DNA from: Anaerolineales bacterium
GTDB taxonomy: Bacteria > Chloroflexota > Anaerolineae > 4572-78 > J111
Assembly: GCA_012032575.1 (NCBI GenBank)
Contig: JAAUSP010000319.1
Coordinates: 1-8,508, forward strand
Length of the DNA stretch: 8,508 nucleotides
Direction: 5' to 3'
Below the pieces are notes generated by a model. The model was given only the letters and a program-made list of their open reading frames with translations. It was not told where the DNA came from and made no database searches. A program made the position numbers and the translations under genes. Numbering within the stretch: the first letter of the stretch is position 1; every line of letters starts with the position of its first letter. Positions 336-7,479 of this stretch are shown here, piece after piece.

Positions 336-365
336 CGTTTCAGGTGAAACGCAAAAGGTGAAACG
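336..365. repeat. Small hairpin with repeated word GGTGAAACG
   Basis: CGTTTCA (336-342), a GG loop and TGAAACG (345-351) form a perfect 7-bp inverted repeat. The word GGTGAAACG then recurs at 357-365, so the element is a direct repeat plus one inverted copy. It lies about 20 bp upstream of the protease start, in what would be its 5' untranslated region. No function can be assigned; it fits the general form of the other word-repeat elements in this window. Confidence 0.6.
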
Positions 366-377
366 TGTTACAATGTT

Positions 378-443
378 CACCACAAAGGCACAAGGGCACA
401 AAGTTTTTTTATTATTTCTTTGGGTCTTCATGCCTTAGTGGTT
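378..443. repeat. Imperfect long hairpin, ACCACAAAGGCACAAG type
   Basis: The left arm (378-403) reads CACCACAAAGGCACAAGG then GCACAAAG. The right arm (418-443) reads CTTTGGGTCTTCATGCC then TTAGTGGTT. They pair imperfectly around an AT-rich loop with seven T's (404-410). The left arm itself holds a repeated word, (G)GCACAA. From memory, near-identical ACCACAAAGGCACAAAG hairpins are scattered through many environmental bacterial genomes, but I could not search for this. On the minus strand, the direction of the flanking genes, the loop is A-rich and no U-tract follows, so it is not a standard intrinsic terminator. Confidence 0.6.
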
Positions 444-479
444 AAGATATCGCTTCAATAATCCGGTCGTCCCGATCTG

Positions 480-520
480 TCGCGTCTTCGCGTCCTCGCG
501 TCTCTACGCTTTTGCTACGC
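480..520. repeat. Tandem 8-bp repeat TCGCGTCT, one-armed
   Basis: Three head-to-tail 8-mers, TCGCGTCT (480-487), TCGCGTCC (488-495) and TCGCGTCT (496-503), are followed by CTACGC (504-509) and CTACGC again (515-520). The second CTACGC overlaps the stop codon (515-517) of the 84-residue gene. Unlike the other elements there is no reverse-complement arm nearby, so this looks like half an element. It sits just after the 3' end of the I9-like gene. Confidence 0.6.
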
Positions 521-769
521 GGTCCTCATACCTTCATCCGCCTCCACCGAGACCACCCACTCCTGGGTGAGCAGCTTCAAGGCATCCCGGCCCGGCGCCG
601 ATACGGCCACGCCCGGCGACAGCTTGAAGACGTGCCTGACCTCGATACCCTGAGCGGCCAGCCAGTCCAGGTGTGGGCTGGGGTCGCCGTCGGTGCGGAC
701 AATCAAATCAACGGCCCGATTGGGCATATCCTGCAAGCGTTGTTCTAATTTTTGATCAATTTCGGCCAT
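515..769 (-). CDS. Free-standing I9-like peptidase inhibitor/propeptide protein
   Basis: An 84-residue protein whose sequence follows the I9 (subtilisin propeptide) pattern: a first strand AVDLIVRTDG (19-28), a helix LDWLAAQGIEV, a central KLSPGVAVSAPG, a second helix RDALKLLTQE and a closing strand WVVSVEADEG. I9 domains normally fold the attached protease and block its active site with their C-terminal tail. Free-standing versions such as fungal POIA1 act as inhibitors. Here there is no signal peptide and no protease domain, but the next gene on the same strand starts with a similar I9-like segment and looks like an S8 protease. I infer a chaperone, inhibitor or immunity role for that protease. 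The start is set by a near-ideal Shine-Dalgarno AGGAGG (775-780), five bases upstream. The promoter is at 855-883. Primary similarity is weak, so function is tentative. Confidence 0.7.
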   Translation of the reverse strand: MAEIDQKLEQRLQDMPNRAVDLIVRTDGDPSPHLDWLAAQGIEVRHVFKLSPGVAVSAPGRDALKLLTQEWVVSVEADEGMRTA

Positions 770-804
770 GGTTACCTCCTGAAAAGAAAGATGCGATGAC
801 TCGT

Positions 805-846
805 GAGGCGAGGAGGCGAGGACCCGAAGTGCGTCGCCTCATCCTC
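805..846. repeat. Word repeat GAGGCGAG with partial inverted copy
   Basis: GAGGCGAG occurs twice head to tail (805-812, 813-820), followed after a short spacer by GTCGCCTCATCCTC (833-846), which contains the reverse complement CGCCTC. The hairpin is imperfect. It lies between the predicted minus-strand start point (about 848) and the Shine-Dalgarno of the I9-like gene, so it would fold in that mRNA's 5' leader. Confidence 0.5.
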
Positions 847-854
847 TTTACTTA

Positions 855-883
855 ATTATCAATCTTAAAGGGTCAAATGTCAA
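855..883 (-). promoter_or_regulatory. Sigma-70-like promoter for the I9-like/protease pair
   Basis: On the minus strand a perfect -35 TTGACA (878-883) is separated by 17 bp from GATAAT (855-860), one mismatch from the -10 consensus. The expected start point is about 848, giving a leader of roughly 80 nt before the ATG at 769. No comparable promoter is visible in front of the protease gene itself, so this one probably serves both. Confidence 0.65.
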
Positions 884-903
884 CCGGCAATGTTAACAAA
901 TAG

Positions 904-963
904 GTGATACGTGATGCGTGATACGTGAGCCTCTTCATCACGCATCACGTATCACGCATCACG
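904..963. repeat. Word-repeat palindrome, unit GTGATRC
   Basis: The left arm has GTGATAC (904-910), GTGATGC (911-917) and GTGATAC (918-924). After a short loop the right arm has GCATCAC (942-948), GTATCAC (949-955) and GCATCAC (956-962), preceded by a partial unit from 936. The two versions of the 7-mer alternate in both arms, so the arms can pair perfectly over about 19 bp in a shifted register. It lies 33 bp beyond the rhomboid stop codon and just before the promoter of the next gene, a terminator-like position, but no T-tract follows on either strand. Confidence 0.8.
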
Positions 964-996
964 ATTACCCCCGGAATTCCGAGAGCGCCAAACAGG

Positions 997-2575
997 TTAA
1001 GAGGTCTGATTGATCGAGTTGTCCAGCTTGAGGATCAAATTATAAGCGCCGGGTTGTCCGTCGCTGCTGACGGCGTAGATGGTGTAAGTGCCGGAAACAG
1101 GCAAGATATAGGTTTCAATCCGGGCATTGTAACCGCCGCCGCTGTCGTCATCTTCGGTGAGATATTCGTTATCGGGGTCAAACAGACCAATCTGGGCGTC
1201 TATTTCATTACTCTGCATGCTAATGGTCACTACCTGGCCGGCTTTGCCCTCAAAGGTCCATAAATCGCCTGCTTCGTCTCTCAATTGGCCTTGAACGGTC
1301 TGGCCGTAGGCAATCGTCCCGCCGCCCGAATGGCCTCCCGGCTCTATTCCCCCCCAACCGCTGGCCCAAAAGGAGAAGACCAGCCATGTCGCACTGACCA
1401 ACGCGACCACACTGAGCACGGGCATCCACCAGCGCCGCCGCAGCGAAGCCCGATCCTGGATGCGGCGGCGGGTATTGTTGGGGTCAATCCGGTAACGGGG
1501 AACCAGTGGGTAGGCCAGGACAAACCCGGCTAAAAAGCCGCCCAGGTGAGCAAAGTTATCGGCTGGCATCAGGCCGCTAAAACCCAGCACCAGGCTCACG
1601 CCAATGAGGACTAGCGCTGTGTTGCGTTGCCGCCGGCCAAATTCGCCCAAGCGCCGCCGGTAAAACAGAAAGAAGGCCAACTGCATGCCCACAATCCCAA
1701 AAATCGCCCCCGACGCGCCCGCCGAATAGGTCATCGGGCCGTGTACGGCAAAACTGGTCAGGCTGCCAAACAGACCGGCCAGCAGGTAAACGATAATAAA
1801 GCGGGCACGGCCATACAAACGCTCCATTTCAAAGCCAAAGGCAATCAGACCGATAAAATTAAAGGCCAGGTGCTGCGCTCCAATGTGCAAAAACATCGAA
1901 GTGAACAGTCGCCAGACTTCGCCTTGCAGGATCAACGGGCCGTAATTGGCCCCAAATTTGATCAGGACTTCGTCCGTCTGGGAGCCGCCGGCCAACTCCT
2001 GGGCCAGCCAAACCAGCACAATCGCACCCATCAGGAGGTAGGTAAAGAATGGCTTGGCCGGCGGATGCTCATAAGGGTTGAGATAGTCGCCCTGAACCTG
2101 GCTGTAATAGCGATCCTCAATCGCCTGCATACAGTCCGAGCAGCGAAATCCCACGGCGTCCGCTGGGCGCACTTGGGGCAAATGGGCCGGTTGCAGCGAT
2201 TGCAGCGCAGCCCTGTCTCCACTTTGGGATGCTGGTAGCAGTACAGCGGGCCGGTTTCTTCGGTTGAGCCACCCTCTTGAACCAAACCTGCGGCGGTCGG
2301 CTGCCTGTCCTGAGCTGGGACGAAGGGTCGGTGGTCGGCAGTCTTCTTTTCCAGCAAAGCCAGCGTCGCTTTGGCCGAAGCGTTACCAGGCTCCAAAGCC
2401 ACCACTCGATCCAAATAAGCTTTCTTTTCAGCCAAATCCTCGACCACGCCGGCCAATTCCAGCCAGGCGGCGGCGTTGCTTGGGTCTTCCTGGGCGCCTC
2501 GTCGAAAAGGCGGCGGGCCTCAGCGGTGTCGCCCACACGGGCAGCGGTTCGTCCTTGTTGAAGTTTATCTGACAT
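997..2575 (-). CDS. Rhomboid intramembrane serine protease with TPR-like, B-box and PPC-like domains (two frameshifts)
   Basis: Cleaves membrane-bound substrates inside the bilayer. With two single-base gaps repaired it gives 526 residues. Residues 1-85 look TPR-like (AEARRLFDEA, then AWLELAGVVEDLAEKKAYLDR). Residues 113-149 form a B-box-type zinc finger with C113, H116, C125, C128, C133, C136, C146 and C149. The rhomboid core spans about 175-365, with H236 and N240 (HLAFN), catalytic Ser289 in GASGAIFG and His344 in NFAHLGG. A seventh helix lies at about 386-404. Residues 422-518 resemble a PPC beta domain (GQTVQGQL to SGTYTIYAV), predicted outside. The frame breaks at about 2491-2500, where CCC probably should be CCCC (before QEDPSNAAAW), and at 2153-2157 between AQRTP and VGFRCSDC. 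Start ATG 2573-2575 has AAAGGA upstream and a good promoter. Both catalytic residues are intact, so the breaks are probably sequencing errors. Confidence 0.85.
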
Positions 2576-2606
2576 GAGGAGTCCTTTAGTGAGTCGGGTT
2601 ACGTTC

Positions 2607-2635
2607 ATTTTAAGGCATCTTCAAACAGGGGTCAA
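2607..2635 (-). promoter_or_regulatory. Sigma-70-like promoter for the rhomboid gene
   Basis: On the minus strand TTGACC (2630-2635) and TAAAAT (2607-2612) are separated by 17 bp, each one mismatch from consensus. The start point would be near 2600, leaving a leader of about 25 nt before the ATG at 2575. It supports the upstream start and therefore the full-length, frameshift-spanning rhomboid reading. Confidence 0.6.
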
Positions 2636-2680
2636 GGGTTAATTGTTATCAGTTTGCCTTCAAATTCATATTTTTTCGGG

Positions 2681-2686
2681 TATAAT
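2681..2686 (+). promoter_or_regulatory. Perfect TATAAT box, possible second promoter of the ABC cassette
   Basis: TATAAT matches the -10 consensus exactly. The nearest -35-like sequence, TTGCCT (2654-2659), is 21 bp away, which is too far for a normal sigma-70 promoter, so activity is uncertain. If used, its transcript would carry the hairpin at 2700-2750 in a leader of about 165 nt. Confidence 0.3.
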
Positions 2687-2699
2687 GCCCTGGTTGATT

Positions 2700-2750
2700 C
2701 GTGTTGCGTCTTGCGTCTTGCGTAAAACGGAACACGCAACACGCAACACG
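2700..2750. repeat. Word-repeat palindrome, unit GTGTTGC/GTCTTGC
   Basis: After C2700, the left arm (2701-2723) reads GTGTTGC, GTCTTGC, GTCTTGC, GT. The right arm (2732-2750) is the reverse complement of GTGTTGC units. The arms pair over 19 bp with two mismatches, both the same G-to-C change at the same place in successive left-arm units. The loop is about 8 nt. It lies in the divergent region between the rhomboid and ABC promoters. No T-tract follows. Confidence 0.8.
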
Positions 2751-2782
2751 TTTGCGCTCGTTGCTCTATATCTGGGCTAAAT

Positions 2783-2803
2783 ATTGACAAAACATTGACA
2801 AAA
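2783..2803 (+). promoter_or_regulatory. Direct repeat ATTGACAAAA over the -35 region
   Basis: ATTGACAAAA occurs at 2783-2792 and again at 2794-2803, 11 bp apart, about one helical turn. The second copy contains the -35 box of the ABC promoter. Such same-face direct repeats can be regulator sites, but the repeat could also be a chance duplication of the -35. Confidence 0.4.
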
Positions 2804-2823
2804 TTCCTCTGTTCTGTTATAAC
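2795..2823 (+). promoter_or_regulatory. Strong sigma-70-like promoter of the ABC cassette
   Basis: A perfect -35 TTGACA (2795-2800) is followed after 17 bp by TATAAC (2818-2823), one mismatch from consensus, with an extended -10 TG at 2815-2816. The start point would be near 2830, about 28 nt before the ATG at 2858. No other promoter of this quality is seen before the permease or AttH-like genes, so it likely drives all three. Confidence 0.7.
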
Positions 2824-2857
2824 TAATCGTGTTGAATTTCACGATGAATGGTAAATT

Positions 2858-3537
2858 ATGACTCCAATTGTTCAGCTTCAAAATTTGACCAAAAGTTATA
2901 CCGAAGGCAAGGAGAGCCGGGCTATTCTGCAAGATGTCAATGCCAGCTTTGACACCGGCGAATTTATCCTGCTGCTGGGCCACAGCGGTTCCGGTAAAAG
3001 CACCCTGCTCAACCTCATCAGCGGCATTGACGCGCCCGACAACGGCGATATTCTGGTCAACGGCGTGGCCATCAACCGCCTGAGCGAGCGCCAGCGGACC
3101 ATGTTCCGGCGGGAGCATATCGGCTTTATTTCCAGTTTTTCAACCTGATCCCTACCCTGACCGCCTTTGAAAACATCACCCTGGCCCTGCATCTCAACGG
3201 CGGCGTCACTGCGGCCAAAGAAAAAGAGTCAAAAAACCTGCTGGAGCGGGTCGGCCTGAGCCACCGGCAAGATGCCTTTCCCGACCGCCTGTCGGGCGGG
3301 GAGCAGCAGCGCGTGGCCATTCTGCGGGCCATCGCCCACAACCCCACCCTGCTCCTGGCCGACGAACCCACCGGCAACCTCGACGAAGACACCGGCCGCA
3401 CCATCATCGAACTCCTGCTCGAACTGACCCGCCAGGCCAACAAAACCCTGATCATGGCCACCCACAACCCGGAAATCATTCCGCTGGCGGACAAGGTGTA
3501 TCGGATTAAACATGGGGAATTGATTTTAACCAAGTAG
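2858..3537 (+). CDS. LolD/MacB-type ABC transporter ATPase (one frameshift)
   Basis: ATP-hydrolysing subunit of an MacB/LolCDE-type (type VII) exporter, working in the cytoplasm with the permease encoded next. The repaired protein is 226 residues, the usual family length. Motifs: Walker A GHSGSGKS (41-48), Q-loop Gln93 in IGFIFQFFNL, signature LSGGEQQR (145-152), Walker B LLLADEP (165-171), D-loop GNLD (173-176) and H-loop His203 (ATHNPE). The frame breaks at 3128-3132, inside the Q-loop codons: ATTTCCAG is present where ATTTTCCAG would restore I-F-Q. Without repair the product stops after about 97 residues and cannot work. Every motif on both sides is intact, so a lost T in a homopolymer is the simplest explanation. 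The Shine-Dalgarno is weak. The gene is followed immediately by the hairpin at 3538-3587. Confidence 0.88.
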
Positions 3538-3587
3538 CGTGGTGCGTGGTGCGTGGTCAATTAACGCACCACGCACCACGCACCACG
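3538..3587. repeat. Word-repeat palindrome, unit GCGTGGT, between two cassette genes
   Basis: Counting the G of the stop codon (3537), GCGTGGT occurs three times head to tail (3537-3557). After a 10-nt loop containing CAATTAA, its reverse complement runs 3568-3587. The stem is a perfect 20 bp. It fills most of the 69-bp gap between the ATPase and permease genes and ends 19 nt before the permease ATG, which lacks a clear Shine-Dalgarno. No T-tract follows. It could protect the upstream mRNA 3' end or tune permease translation. Confidence 0.85.
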
Positions 3588-3606
3588 TTGATTATATGAC
3601 ACACTG

Positions 3607-6178
3607 ATGACAAAACCTTCTCCCTTCACCCTGCTCGCTCTGCGTCACACCACCCGCCACCCGATCCAAAGTTTGCTGCTTATTTTGGGGGTGGCGTTGG
3701 GCGTGGCGATGATTGTAGCCATTGACCTGGCCAACGGCAGCGCCAGCCAGGCCTTTGCCCTGTCCACCGACAGCATCGCCGGCAAGGCGACCCACCAGAT
3801 TGTGGCCGCGCCCGGCGATTTGCCCACCTCGCTCTACGAGCAGTTGCGGCGCGAGGCGGGCCTGACCGATGTCGCTCCGGTAGTGACCGGCCTGGTGCTG
3901 CTGAAAAACGCCGATGACCTGCCGCTGCAACTGCTGGGCATTGACCCCTTTGCCGAGCCGCCGTTCAGAACTTATCTGGGCGACGGCAGCGGTCAGATTT
4001 CCTTTAACGCCCTGCTCAGCTTGCTGATCGAGCCAAACACCGTCCTCCTGCCCCAATCCCTGGCCGAGCAGTACAACCTGACCCCCGGCGATACCTTGAC
4101 CCTGCTGGCGGGCGGCCAGATCAAAACCGTCCAACTGGTCGGCCTGCTCCAGCCCAGCGACGAACTCAGCCAGCGCGCCCTCAACGGCCTGATCCTGGCC
4201 GATATCAGCACCGCCCAGGAAGTGCTGAACATGGTCGGTCGGCTTAGCCACATTGACCTGATTTTGCCGCCCCAGGCCGACCCGCAGCCCATCCTCGACC
4301 GGCTGCCGGTCAATGCCCGTTTGCAGCAGGCCGCCCTGCGCAACCAAACCCTTAACCAGATGACCGCCGCCTTTGAGCTGAATTTGTCGGCGCTGAGCCT
4401 GCTGGCCCTGATTGTCGGCATGTTTCTGATTTATAACACCATCAGTTTTTCGGTGGTGCAGCGCCGGCCGGTGCTGGGCACGCTGCGCTGTCTGGGCGTC
4501 ACCCGGCGCGAGATTTTTGGCCTGGTGCTGGGCGAGGCCCTGGTCTTGAGCGCCCTCGGCGCGGTCATTGGGCTGGGGCTGGGCGTCATCCTGGGGCGCG
4601 GCCTGGTCGGGCTGGTCACGCAGATCCATCAATGATCTTTATTTTACCCTGACCGTGCAAAGCGTCTCGCTCTCACCGCTGACCCTGTACAAAGGGCTGG
4701 TCGCCGGCCTGGCTGCCGGTTTGCTGGCCGCTTTTGTCCCGGCTCTGGAAGCGACCACCGTGCCTCCCAACAGCGCCCTCAAACGCTCCCTCGGCGAAGC
4801 CCGCATGCAGCGATTCATTCCCGGTCTGGCCGTGGCCAGCGTGGTGATGATGCTGGCGGGCTGGGTGCTGCTCAATCTCGCCAGCCGCTCGCTCCCGCTC
4901 AGTTTCACCGCGCTGTTCATTATTCTGCTCGGCTCGGCCTTTCTCAGCCCGCTGCTGACCAAGCTGCTGATGGGCCTGGTCCAGCGGGTCACACCGCGCC
5001 TGTTTGGGATCATCGGGGTGATGGCCCCGCGTGACATCATCCGCTCCCTCAGCCGGACCTCGGTGACGATTGCGGCGCTGATGCTGGCGGTCACGGTGAT
5101 TATCGGCGTCAGCGTGATGATTGACTCCTTCCGTAACACGGTGGTGACCTGGCTGGACAGCATTCTGGCCGCCGATATTTACATCAGTCCGGCCGGGCAA
5201 AACCTGCGCGTCGAGGGCGACATCAGCCCCGACTTTATCGAGCAGGCCAGCCAAATCGAAGGGGTGGAGGCGGTCAGCCTGTTGCGAAGCACGGTGGTTT
5301 TCTCAGAGGACTATGAAGAAGTGGAGCTGCGCGGCCTGTCGCCGGAACCGCGCGAGGACCTCCGCCCGATGCTGTGGGCCAGTGGCAGTCCGGCAGAATT
5401 GGAGGCGGCCAGAGAAGCCGGCGGGGTTCTGGTTTCCGAAGTGTTTGCCCGCACCCAGGGCCTGCCGCTCGACCGGCCTTCGGTCATCACCCTCATCACC
5501 GAAAGCGGGCCGCAGCCGTTCGACGTAGTGGGCATTTTCTACGATTACGCCGTGCCGGATAAAGGCTACGTGCTGATGCGGCTGCAAACCTATCGGACCC
5601 ATTGGCCCAGCGACACGGCTATTTCCAACATGGCCCTGTTCCTTTCGCCCGAAGCCGCGGCGCAGGCGGACGCGCTGGCCCAAAAAATAACCGACGAATT
5701 TTCGGCCAAATATTTTCTGTCCGTCTCCTCCAACCGGGGCATCAAAGAGAACGCGCTGGAGGTCTTTGACCGGACCTTCACCATCACTGCCGCTCTGCGC
5801 CTGCTGGCGACGGTGGTTGCTTTTATTGGCGTGTTGAGCGCCATCATGTCGCTGCAACTGGAGCGCACCCGCGAACTGGGCACGCTGCGGGCCAACGGCA
5901 TGAGTATATTACAATTGTGGGGCCAAACCCTGCTGGAAACGGCGCTGATGGGCCTGACCGCCGGGCTGATGGCCATGCCCATCGGCTGGGCGCTGGCCTA
6001 CATTCTGGTCCATTTTATCAACCTGCGCTCCTTCGGCTGGTCGCTGCAAATGCACACCACCCCCGACATTTTTGGTCTGGCTCTGCTGGTGGCCCTGCTG
6101 GCGGCTTTGCTGGCCGGGATTTACCCGGTCATTCGACTGAAGAATATGCAGATTGCCGTCGCGGTGAGGGAGGAGTAG
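3607..6178 (+). CDS. FtsX-type ABC transporter permease, double-domain (one frameshift)
   Basis: Membrane subunit of an MacB/LolCE-type system, partner of the ATPase just upstream. The repaired protein is about 856 residues. Visible order: a first helix (about 18-42), an extracytoplasmic MacB-PCD-like region (43-255), helices at about 260-282, 310-336 and 360-378 forming FtsX unit one, helices at about 405-423, 432-452 and 485-503, a second outer region (about 505-720), then helices at about 725-750, 775-800 and 823-845 forming FtsX unit two. That gives ten helices, as in fused YbbP/AttFG-like permeases. FtsX hallmarks include VVQRRPVLGTLRCLGVTRREI and LERTRELGTLRANGMS. The frame breaks at 4621-4627: dropping one base (such as A4624) turns TQIHQ-stop into TQSINDLYFTLTV and restores the frame. 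The ATG at 3607 has no clear Shine-Dalgarno. The final stop overlaps the start of the repeat at 6178. Confidence 0.85.
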
Positions 6179-6315
6179 CGAATGGCGAATGAGCGAATGG
6201 CGAATCAGCGAATGGCGAATCAGCGAATGGCGAATAAGCGAATGGCGAATCAGCGAATGGCGAATCAGCGAATGGCGAATAAGATTCTTCATTCGCCATT
6301 CGCCATTCGCCATTC
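6178..6315. repeat. Seven 15-bp tandem repeats with a 7-bp-unit inverted arm (GCGAATG / ATTCGCC)
   Basis: AGCGAATGGCGAATN is repeated seven times without a gap from 6177 to 6281; the last base is G, C, C, A, C, C, A in order. Each 15-mer contains the word GCGAAT twice. After AGATTCTTC the right arm (6291-6315) has three and a half ATTCGCC units, the reverse complement of the same word in a plain 7-bp register. The element therefore folds into a stem of up to about 20 bp, with many alternative registers. It fills most of the gap between the permease and AttH-like genes. The 15-bp period is a multiple of three, so all frames stay open and give spurious low-complexity translations. Confidence 0.9.
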
Positions 6316-6333
6316 ATCTGGGGGTAACAAACT

Positions 6334-7479
6334 ATGAAACTAGCCATCGCTATTATCGCCTTGCTTTTAATTTCCGGCTTCATCGTCTTTCGCTACGATC
6401 AGGTCAACCTCAACCCCGATGAAATCAGCGCCGAGGTAGAAAATCTGGTGGGGGAAGAGTACACCGGCGAGGATTTTCGCAAAGTCTACGAGGTTGTCCC
6501 TTTTGAGTTTCCCAAAGATCACGGCCCTCACCCCGATTACCGGGCCGAGTGGTGGTATTACACCGGCAACCTGGCCGACGCCCAGGGCAACCGCTTTGGC
6601 TACCAGTTTACTATCTTCCGGCGGGGTATCGTCCCCGGCGAGCCGGAGCGAGCCTCGGAGTGGGCCACCCGCCAGATTTATTTTGCCCACTTCACCGTGA
6701 CCGATGTGAGCGGTAACGCCTTTGAATTCCACGAGCGCTACAGTCGGGCCAGCCCCAATTTGGCCGGAGCGCAGGGCCTGCCGACCTATCACGTCTGGTT
6801 GGACGATTGGTTTGCCAAGGAGATTGCGCCGGGCAAGGTGCAGCTCAAAGCCGGCGATGGCAATGTAGGCATTGATCTGATTCTGGAACAGGCCAAACCC
6901 GCCGCGCTGCAAGGGGATCGCGGCCTGAGCGCCAAGAGCGACGCGCCGGGCAACGCCAGCTACTATTACTCCCTCACCAACAACCTCACCACCGGCACGG
7001 TGACGACCGCCCGTGGCACGTTTGATGTGACCGGCAATTCCTGGAAAGACCGGGAATGGAGCACCTCGGACCTGGGGCCGGAGGCGGTGGGCTGGGATTG
7101 GTTTTCATTGCAGTTGGACGATGAACGCGAAGTGACGTTTTACTACATTCGCCGCAAAGACGGCAGCGCCGAGCCGGTTTCCGCCGGGATATTGGTCAAT
7201 CCCGACGGCACTACCGAGGTTTTGAAGCTGGACGATATAAAAATTACCAACCTCAGCACCTGGACCAGCCCCGCCAGCGGCGCGGTTTATCCCGCCGAGT
7301 GGAACCTCGCCATTCCCGACCAGGGCATTGACCTACATATCACCCCGCTCATTAGCGACCAGGAACTGCGGGTTTCGTTTACCTACTGGGAAGGGGCCGT
7401 GCGGGTAGAAGGGTCGCACACCGGCTACGGCTACGTGGAGCTAACCGGCTATTACGAGAGTCTGCGGGGACGGATGTGA
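6334..7479 (+). CDS. AttH/CrtC-like lipocalin-fold protein (COG5621 type), membrane-anchored
   Basis: A 381-residue protein of the family called AttH, carotenoid 1,2-hydratase-like or 'predicted secreted hydrolase'. Residues 3-20 are a hydrophobic N-terminal anchor or uncleaved signal (MKLAIAIIALLLISG); no lipobox Cys is present. Family hallmarks are clear: HPDYRAEWWYYTGNL (66-80), AHFTVTD (118-124), SWKDREWSTSDLG (236-248) and GWDWFSLQL (253-261). Members have two lipocalin-like barrels and are often encoded beside a LolD-like ATPase and FtsX-like permease, as in the attEFGH arrangement. That is exactly the context here, so a role in binding or handing over a hydrophobic substrate outside the membrane is likelier than carotenoid hydration. 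The catalytic claim for this group is not settled. Translation starts at ATG 6334 after GGGGGT (6320-6325). The gene is intact. Confidence 0.85.
   Translation: MKLAIAIIALLLISGFIVFRYDQVNLNPDEISAEVENLVGEEYTGEDFRKVYEVVPFEFPKDHGPHPDYRAEWWYYTGNLADAQGNRFGYQFTIFRRGIVPGEPERASEWATRQIYFAHFTVTDVSGNAFEFHERYSRASPNLAGAQGLPTYHVWLDDWFAKEIAPGKVQLKAGDGNVGIDLILEQAKPAALQGDRGLSAKSDAPGNASYYYSLTNNLTTGTVTTARGTFDVTGNSWKDREWSTSDLGPEAVGWDWFSLQLDDEREVTFYYIRRKDGSAEPVSAGILVNPDGTTEVLKLDDIKITNLSTWTSPASGAVYPAEWNLAIPDQGIDLHITPLISDQELRVSFTYWEGAVRVEGSHTGYGYVELTGYYESLRGRM

Follow-up and report, generated by a model that had tools for sequence, protein, structure and literature searches.

Palindromes built from short repeated words occupy the gaps between genes both in the window analyzed here, an 8,508-nt stretch of Anaerolineales DNA (contig JAAUSP010000319.1), and in related Chloroflexota: a word of 7 or 8 bp is repeated in tandem, in many cases facing an array of its own reverse complement. 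These arrays are in excess over shuffled sequence, dominated by period 7, and mostly intergenic; their unit variants are mirrored between the two arms, the 5′ arm is G-rich (purine-rich in the octamers), the words are shared among loci, and turnover is fast. The word hairpins are tentatively read, with a little less than even confidence, as a widespread intergenic class arising by replication slippage and hairpin template switching on a dispersed vocabulary of words. The published accounts of heptamer repeats compared below go word by word, as a quadruplex, a regulator site, or slippage; that dozens of words obey a single rule of placement and polarity, and have mirrored arms, favors a shared process that can be tested. 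This is relevant to the predominance of period 7 in such tandem repeats, and it is a caution for annotation: not every such hairpin is a terminator or a regulatory RNA.

Occurrence and placement

Four strong elements, all heptamer-based, stand out in the window (904-963, 2700-2750, 3538-3587, and 6178-6315; Table 1). A detector for hairpins with arms of at least 14 found three, all of period 7; 6178-6315 escaped it because its arms are unequal in make-up (15-bp units opposite 3.7 pure heptamers). Fifty dinucleotide shuffles of the window gave a mean of 0.06 hairpins, none of them periodic. The initial annotation had listed eight elements with a common word-repeat-palindrome layout. This holds for the four heptamer arrays, which face their reverse complements, and for 378-443, a degenerate octamer hairpin, but the remaining three are weak. 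Judged from reading frames, each of the five gaps of more than ~60 bp in the window has an element. Compared with 140 of 819 gaps of at least 30 bp in relatives, this makes the window unusually element-rich.

The census in relatives covered 1,654 kb from 12 Chloroflexota genomes, mostly chosen as word-rich, so that densities are not representative; six of the seven stretches from G004 were centered on known matches (G numbers denote genomes and L numbers loci). Genes were called with a simple codon-model caller, which called none in G093 and G099. The sample contains 242 arrays, of which 171 have period 7, 32 have period 8, and 39 have other periods, vs. one in a single block-shuffled copy. 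In window and relatives alike the elements are thus commoner than in shuffled DNA; the initial annotation had regarded the opposite outcome as fatal to its reading. Many of the relatives are metagenome assemblies, but given these counts, and the presence of word hairpins in the cyanobacterium Dulcicalothrix desertica PCC 7102 as well, chance, low complexity, or an assembly artefact is hardly a credible explanation.

Of the 203 arrays of period 7 or 8, 157 are intergenic (three of these may come from G093 or G099, which are without gene calls), 10 are at gene edges, and 36 are genic, at a coding fraction of 0.78. Word elements were found in 114 of 605 tandem gaps (0.73 per kb of gap), 13 of 116 divergent gaps (0.28 per kb), and 13 of 98 convergent gaps (0.50 per kb); the corresponding densities of non-periodic hairpins are 0.57, 0.28, and 1.30 per kb. 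Among 163 stop-side distances, 30 fall 0-5 bp past the stop codon, vs. 15.5 expected. Elements overlapping the stop codon are not in excess (31, vs. 35.5 expected).

Pairing, mirrored units, and polarity

A complementary 9-mer is found within 90 bp of 92 of 270 arrays, vs. 17.4 expected from same-genome flanks of other arrays. The arms also agree in the order of their variants: in 78 mixed-unit elements, which were pre-chosen as hairpins so that some bias may remain, shuffling the units of the 3′ arm lowered the best hairpin score in 62 cases, raised it in 15, and left it equal in one, with the score re-optimized after each shuffle. In the window, the A/G unit variants of 904-963 are mirrored between its arms. 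An earlier form of this test (46 better, 8 worse, 20 equal; n = 74) was biased by register choice and has been replaced; a comparison of own partners with those at other loci (73/73) was circular and is not used.

The two arms are not equivalent. Polarity was scored for 111 word hairpins over all fetched loci, with identical ones counted once. The 5′ arm has more G than C in 72 of 81 heptamer hairpins, fewer in eight, and as many in one; octamer hairpins (n = 30) are G-rich on this side in 21 cases vs. C-rich in seven. Counted per distinct heptamer word (n = 53), the figures are 42 vs. 6, with five ties. When the 5′ arm is scored for purines, period 7 gives 62 vs. 15 and period 8 gives 29 vs. 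0, with one tie (n = 30). By genome, heptamer hairpins are divided 13:1 in G200, 13:0 in G002, 6:2 in G004, and 1:1 in G111, with 14:0 at other loci. All four strong window elements fit the rule of a G-rich 5′ arm; the octamer hairpin 378-443 breaks it, its 5′ arm being purine-rich but not G-rich (left half G-C = -2).

Position within the gap follows the same rule. Period-7 arrays in tandem gaps with no detected partner are G-rich in 27 and C-rich in 13 cases near the stop codon, and in 4 and 31 cases, respectively, near the start codon. For arrays sorted by gap side, tandem gaps have G>C by 59:15 on the left and G<C by 64:19 on the right; convergent gaps (6:2 and 11:2) and the left side of divergent gaps (10:1) agree. 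In 121 kb of D. desertica, all three word hairpins, one with period 7 and two with period 9, are G-left, and the few arrays sorted by gap side are mixed, three as predicted and two not.

Plain gap composition is ruled out as the source of this polarity: 170 array-free tandem gaps have a skew of -0.03 after the stop and -0.07 before the start. Nor is it a general property of hairpins, being at most weak in intrinsic terminators of these genomes (20:17, seven ties) and among hairpins without periodicity in tandem gaps (60:44, 11 ties).

Octamer hairpins with the 5′ word CACNAAGN, comparable to window element 378-443, occur at several G200 loci (L099 3771, L103 1111, L103 1768, and L106 5506); with a 5′ arm that is purine-rich but not G-rich, they are perhaps a separate dispersed class. 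Nonamer hairpins (period 9; CGCAGATTN, ACAGGATTN, and AACGGATGN) were seen at L151 9900, L136 8138, L225 6357, L227 13029, and L247 4859, and are the same kind of hairpin, the cyanobacterium included.

Word vocabularies

The initial annotation saw a different word in each gap, and set the elements apart from dispersed families on this ground. The first point is half right: in three of the four strong elements, the words CGTGATR, CGTGTTG/CGTCTTG, and CGTGGTG belong to one family, CGTGNTR. Two copies of CGTGNTR followed by CGTG are present in 81 of the 199 genomes of the nearest relative’s class, with up to 1,554 matches (G200); G111 has 421 and G145 has 328. Outside Chloroflexota there was one match, in one of 10 genomes. 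The same pattern written backwards, as a control, had no matches in most genomes, 181 in G200, and 50 in G111. It had 55 vs. 121 for the pattern itself in G183 and 35 vs. 62 in G137, and exceeded it in a few word-poor genomes (8 vs. 2 in G139, 2 vs. 0 in G151). These control matches may be arrays of another word, since the pattern read backwards is a heptamer repeat too. Three copies of GAGATTN, a different word, have 209 matches in G002, 65 in G005, 59 in G004, one in G007, and none in four other genomes. With words at many loci per genome, the genomes can be said to have vocabularies. The separation from dispersed families survives in part: the words do recur at many loci, but the loops of G002 elements with the same word, compared by eye, are not common to them.

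The 53 distinct words have a weak consensus beyond composition, scoring -372.0 vs. a mean of -387.0 for 60 nulls (sd 4.6; best -376.3). This could point to a common origin of the words, or to a preference for certain sequences in the process that generates the arrays.

Turnover in orthologous gaps

Orthologous gaps were compared between G002 and its relatives G207, G209, and G208 (74-91% DNA identity, main colinear blocks), with elements of periods 7-9 counted as word elements. The 194 comparisons share genomes, and so are not independent: 158 are without a word element, 28 have one in a single species, and eight in both. Nine of the 28 single-species elements face a hairpin of another kind; where both species have an element, the word is the same in four gaps, close in one, and different in three. 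By eye, one gap has a different repeat in each of three species, with no periodicity in the fourth, and another has a CGTGAAA hairpin in each of two species where the other two have CGTGATG-type remnants; in at least two gaps, each of three species has a different palindrome family. With 28 of the 36 element-bearing comparisons one-sided, and repeats differing at the same site, turnover is fast, and at some sites repetitive. A Fisher test for co-occurrence (p 0.0009) is not relied on, because it divided the 28 one-sided cases equally and its pairs are not independent. Other palindrome families (GGGCGAGGC-, AGGACTGGC-, CCCTCTCCC-, and TCATTCTGAGCG-type) were also noted in orthologous gaps of L132-L134 vs. 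L135-L140, and at some gaps each species has a different one.

Dispersed words, and presence in a single species at 28 of 36 element-bearing gaps, are in keeping with a mobile family resembling REPs or MITEs, in which short hairpins would be moved by a transposase, for example of the Y1 (RAYT) type, and the words would then drift; the weak consensus and fixed polarity could reflect common descent. The Y1 transposase domain (PF01797) is found in 140 of the 199 genomes. Y1_Tnp is present in 13 of the 15 word-richest genomes vs. 127 of the 184 others, but this difference falls short of significance (p 0.24), and Y1_Tnp has no match in G132 or G117, both word-rich (236 and 141 word-pattern matches), although these bins may be incomplete. 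The words vary far beyond the units of a usual transposon family, the loops of same-word elements differ, and no target-site duplication could be shown, the orthologous gaps being too diverged for junctions. On balance, a mobile family is an unlikely source.

Termination and other functions

Intrinsic termination had initially been dismissed because none of the elements is followed by a T-tract. Indeed, none of the eight elements has a run of more than three T after it on either strand. On the minus strand, which is the coding strand there, 904-963 is nevertheless followed by six T in 8, and 3538-3587 and 805-846 have five T in 8 after them on the plus strand. The dismissal also gains from gap orientation, with word elements commonest in tandem gaps and other hairpins in convergent ones, and loses from the T-rich 3′ stretches at two elements. 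As a class, then, terminators are unsupported (T runs of at most three; gap orientation); for 904-963 and 3538-3587 this function is possible. A scan for terminator patterns found no site on any element, but allows loops of 3-8 only, so that these hairpins would be skipped. Positions 904-892 on the minus strand, downstream of the rhomboid gene and with six T in 8, are a possible weak terminator.

An RNA fold selected in the reading direction should show an excess of coding-strand G-U mismatches. In 69 tandem-gap elements there are 46 of these, 49 A-C, and 57 others, so that a fold on the coding strand is unsupported. An all-frame translation stop was also considered, and rejected: 28 of the 53 words contain a stop codon, vs. 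26.6 expected (sd 2.8).

More broadly, the elements might be a selected nucleic-acid device in which shape is kept and sequence is free, acting at gene ends (termination, mRNA stability, or cistron boundary) or in protein or nucleoid binding. The excess of distances 0-5 bp past the stop codon, the higher density in tandem than in divergent gaps (0.73 vs. 0.28 per kb), the different repeat families found in the same orthologous gap, and the five or six T in 8 after two strong window elements on the coding strand would all be consistent with such a role. It is nonetheless unlikely: T runs do not exceed three, convergent gaps are not preferred (0.50 vs. 1.30 per kb for other hairpins), neither coding-strand G-U mismatches, stop codons within words, nor stop-overlapping elements are in excess, and most elements are not conserved in related species.

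A possible origin by copying

If slippage and template switching are responsible, replication slippage would multiply a word of 7-8 bp into an array, and the 3′ end of the nascent strand would then fold back on its own arm, in a template switch of the quasipalindrome type. This would either copy the array into a facing reverse-complement arm or keep existing arms identical. Polarity would follow if the G-rich nascent strand is the one that folds back. Words could move from one gap to another through ectopic copying, or through recombination among arrays, with a mobile phase as an alternative dispersal step, and most copies would be near-neutral passengers tolerated between genes. Quasipalindrome template switching itself has been described as a source of mutations in E. 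coli and yeast (PMC7202029, PMC3820800, and PMC8604942).

Slippage would explain the uniformity of words within arrays, and template switching between arms their mirrored unit order; the 15-mer structure in one arm of 6178-6315 shows a later round of multiplication in that arm only. The regular imbalance between left and right resembles what a DNA copying process would leave behind, more than the trace of a single mobile repeat. Polarity is explained neither by composition nor by transcription direction; fold-back priming on a G-rich nascent strand would be the simplest physical reading. The local copying process put forward in the initial annotation is favored by the mirrored variants, as strand-switch copying predicts, but the words are not private; with words common to many loci, purely local creation is insufficient and a dispersal step is needed.

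Several observations weigh against this origin. The recurrence of words (81 of 199 genomes; a single genome with 209 matches to one word triple) is not predicted by local slippage alone, and none of the 60 nulls, given the same starting points, matched the consensus score of the real words. Polarity is weaker in G145 (13:4), and arrays on the right of divergent gaps are evenly divided (5:5). Non-tandem gaps contribute only a handful of whole hairpins, divided 4:1 in convergent and 3:2 (one tie) in divergent gaps. The mirror test may retain some bias, as noted above, and no empty site close enough to reveal a single birth event was found. MutS1 is present in 12 of the 15 word-richest genomes vs. 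165 of the 184 others, and SbcD in nine of 15 vs. 126 of 184, with no clear lack of either (for MutS1 in the top 15, best E-values were converted to the cut-off by hand). No loss of MutS1 or SbcD was seen that could be a cause, although bins may lack genes.

In a more far-reaching version, the hairpins would be a universal self-maintaining class: any word of 7-8 bp could enter, fold-back of the G-rich nascent strand would make and repair the facing arm, polarity would be the footprint of this strand choice, and the quadruplex repeats of Xanthomonas and Nostoc would be the G-tract corner of the class. This is somewhat improbable as it stands.

Comparison with known repeats

Units of ~7 bp in tandem, above chance (171 of 242 arrays) and mostly intergenic (157 of 203), liken these elements to the STRR repeats of Mazel (described in 1990) and the long simple sequence repeats (LSSRs) surveyed by Mrazek in 2007. 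Neither study reportedly had a mirrored arm or polarity as its subject.

Rehm et al. (2015; PMC4692102) interpreted GGGAATC/GGGNATC repeats in Xanthomonas and GGGGA(C/T)T repeats in Nostoc as quadruplexes. They are intergenic in 89-93% of cases in Xanthomonas and 68% in Nostoc, mainly between aligned open reading frames and rarely between divergent ones, with the G-rich strand near the stop (sense) or near the start (antisense); inverted pairs in facing orientation number 70 and 75 in two genomes of Xanthomonas, and are few in Nostoc. Period, intergenic placement, aligned-gene preference, strand rule, and (for Xanthomonas) inverted pairs are all shared with the word hairpins. However, those repeats consist of one G-tract word type per organism, and 83% keep their gene context when two Xanthomonas species are compared (PMC4692102); here there are dozens of words, nearly all without G-tracts, with fast turnover and mirrored units. 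An explanation by G-quadruplexes, as proposed for GGGNATC and GGGGAYT, could call on the common period 7, the location between mostly aligned genes, the G-rich strand nearest its 5′ neighboring gene, and the inverted pairs of Xanthomonas. Yet GGG is present in only two of the 53 distinct words and in no word of the four strong window elements, and polarity is unchanged when GGG words are left out (40 vs. 6 words, five ties). A quadruplex therefore cannot be the shared cause, and is given very little credence as an explanation for these elements.

TAACTGA heptamers (PMC4679880) of Beggiatoaceae, Cyanobacteria, and Bacteroidetes are likewise intergenic and in tandem; they are patchy in occurrence, with other heptamers mixed in, and indels between two Cyanothece strains are mostly in 7-nt steps. 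The main genome of that study has 169 direct sets and one indirect set, mostly lying immediately before start codons, and translational regulation was suggested. They differ from the word hairpins in being a single word, mostly direct, and on the start-codon side. The same source relates Mrazek’s 2007 finding that heptamers are the most abundant class in most genomes, for which polymerase slippage was proposed. In P6b of the Nostoc trnL(UAA) intron, degenerate heptanucleotides of two word classes pair into a hairpin whose length shifts by units (PMC3488679, citing Costa et al., 2002, for P6b hairpins); the pairing is similar, but within one structured intron and not dispersed in gaps.

REPs and GTAG- and CGTC-tagged palindromes (PMC3733652) are also short, intergenic, and in many copies, but they have a conserved sequence and an end tag, neither of which was seen in the word hairpins, whose words differ between loci. 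A GTAG/CGTC tag check by eye of the four strong window elements found GTAG at the left edges of 3538 and 6178 only, where it is the stop codon TAG preceded by G. No description of many-word polarized heptamer hairpins in Chloroflexota was found in searches of an open-licence library without most subscription journals, and a search there for six word strings gave no relevant match, only an unrelated human paper.

Elements and genes of the window

The single-strand folding energy of each element was compared with 200 dinucleotide shuffles (z), and tandem arrays were called with Tandem Repeats Finder.

Table 1. Repeat elements and annotated genes of the window.
Positions	Strand	Feature	Measurements
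336-365		Weak, degenerate; GTGAAAC-type word twice at 15-bp spacing, with short inverted copy	z -1.6; 19/200 shuffles as stable
378-443		Degenerate octamer hairpin, CACAAAGG-type 5′ arm	z -5.9; period-8 array 381-403
480-520		Octamer array TCGCGTCT, without clear partner arm	z -2.2; array 480-503
805-846		Weak octamer element, GAGGCGAG x2.2 with short complementary arm	z -2.1; array 805-822
904-963		Strong heptamer hairpin, CGTGATR	z -7.2; arrays 900-928, 936-963; 19/19 arm pairs; lag-7 match 0.92
2700-2750		Strong heptamer hairpin, CGTCTTG/CGTGTTG, in divergent gap	z -5.2; arrays 2700-2723, 2727-2750; 21/24 arm pairs; lag-7 match 0.94
3537-3587		Strong heptamer hairpin, CGTGGTG	z -7.8; arrays 3537-3557, 3564-3587; over 3538-3587, 20/20 arm pairs and lag-7 match 1.0
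6177-6280		5′ arm, about seven 15-bp units (7+8: GCGAATG + GCGAATCA)	period 15; 6.9 copies; 96% matches
6290-6315		3′ arm, CATTCGC, reverse complement of the 5′ word GCGAATG	3.7 copies
	-	Rhomboid protein gene
2858-3537	+	ABC ATPase (frames)
3607-6178	+	FtsX/MacB-type permease (two frames)
6334-7479	+	CrtC-like lipocalin-domain protein

The arm at 6177-6280 is a higher-order repeat, with heptamer-plus-octamer 15-mers opposite an arm of pure heptamers. Folded as 6176-6318, the whole element has a z of -2.9, and none of 200 shuffles was as stable. Two of the arrays begin inside stop codons, at 3537 in that of the ABC ATPase frame and at 6177 in that of the permease; the arm at 6290-6315 ends 18 bp upstream of the start codon of the CrtC-like gene.

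An Rfam search of the window had no matches at the gathering score, and a plasmid search with positions 880-1000 had none either, although the BLAST low-complexity filter may have masked the query. The nearest relative in the genome collection is at only 57% identity. Among matches to the CrtC-like protein listed with an organism name, nearly all are from Anaerolineae, Chloroflexi, or Chloroflexota; one, at 78%, is from Reichenbachiella sp. The ABC ATPase and the permease are each broken across two frames, by sequencing error or real breakage. A promoter scan found six sites across the window, vs. 2.9 expected. One sigma-70-like match (11/12; 883-855, minus strand) lies between elements 904-963 and 805-846, upstream of the 515-769 frame.

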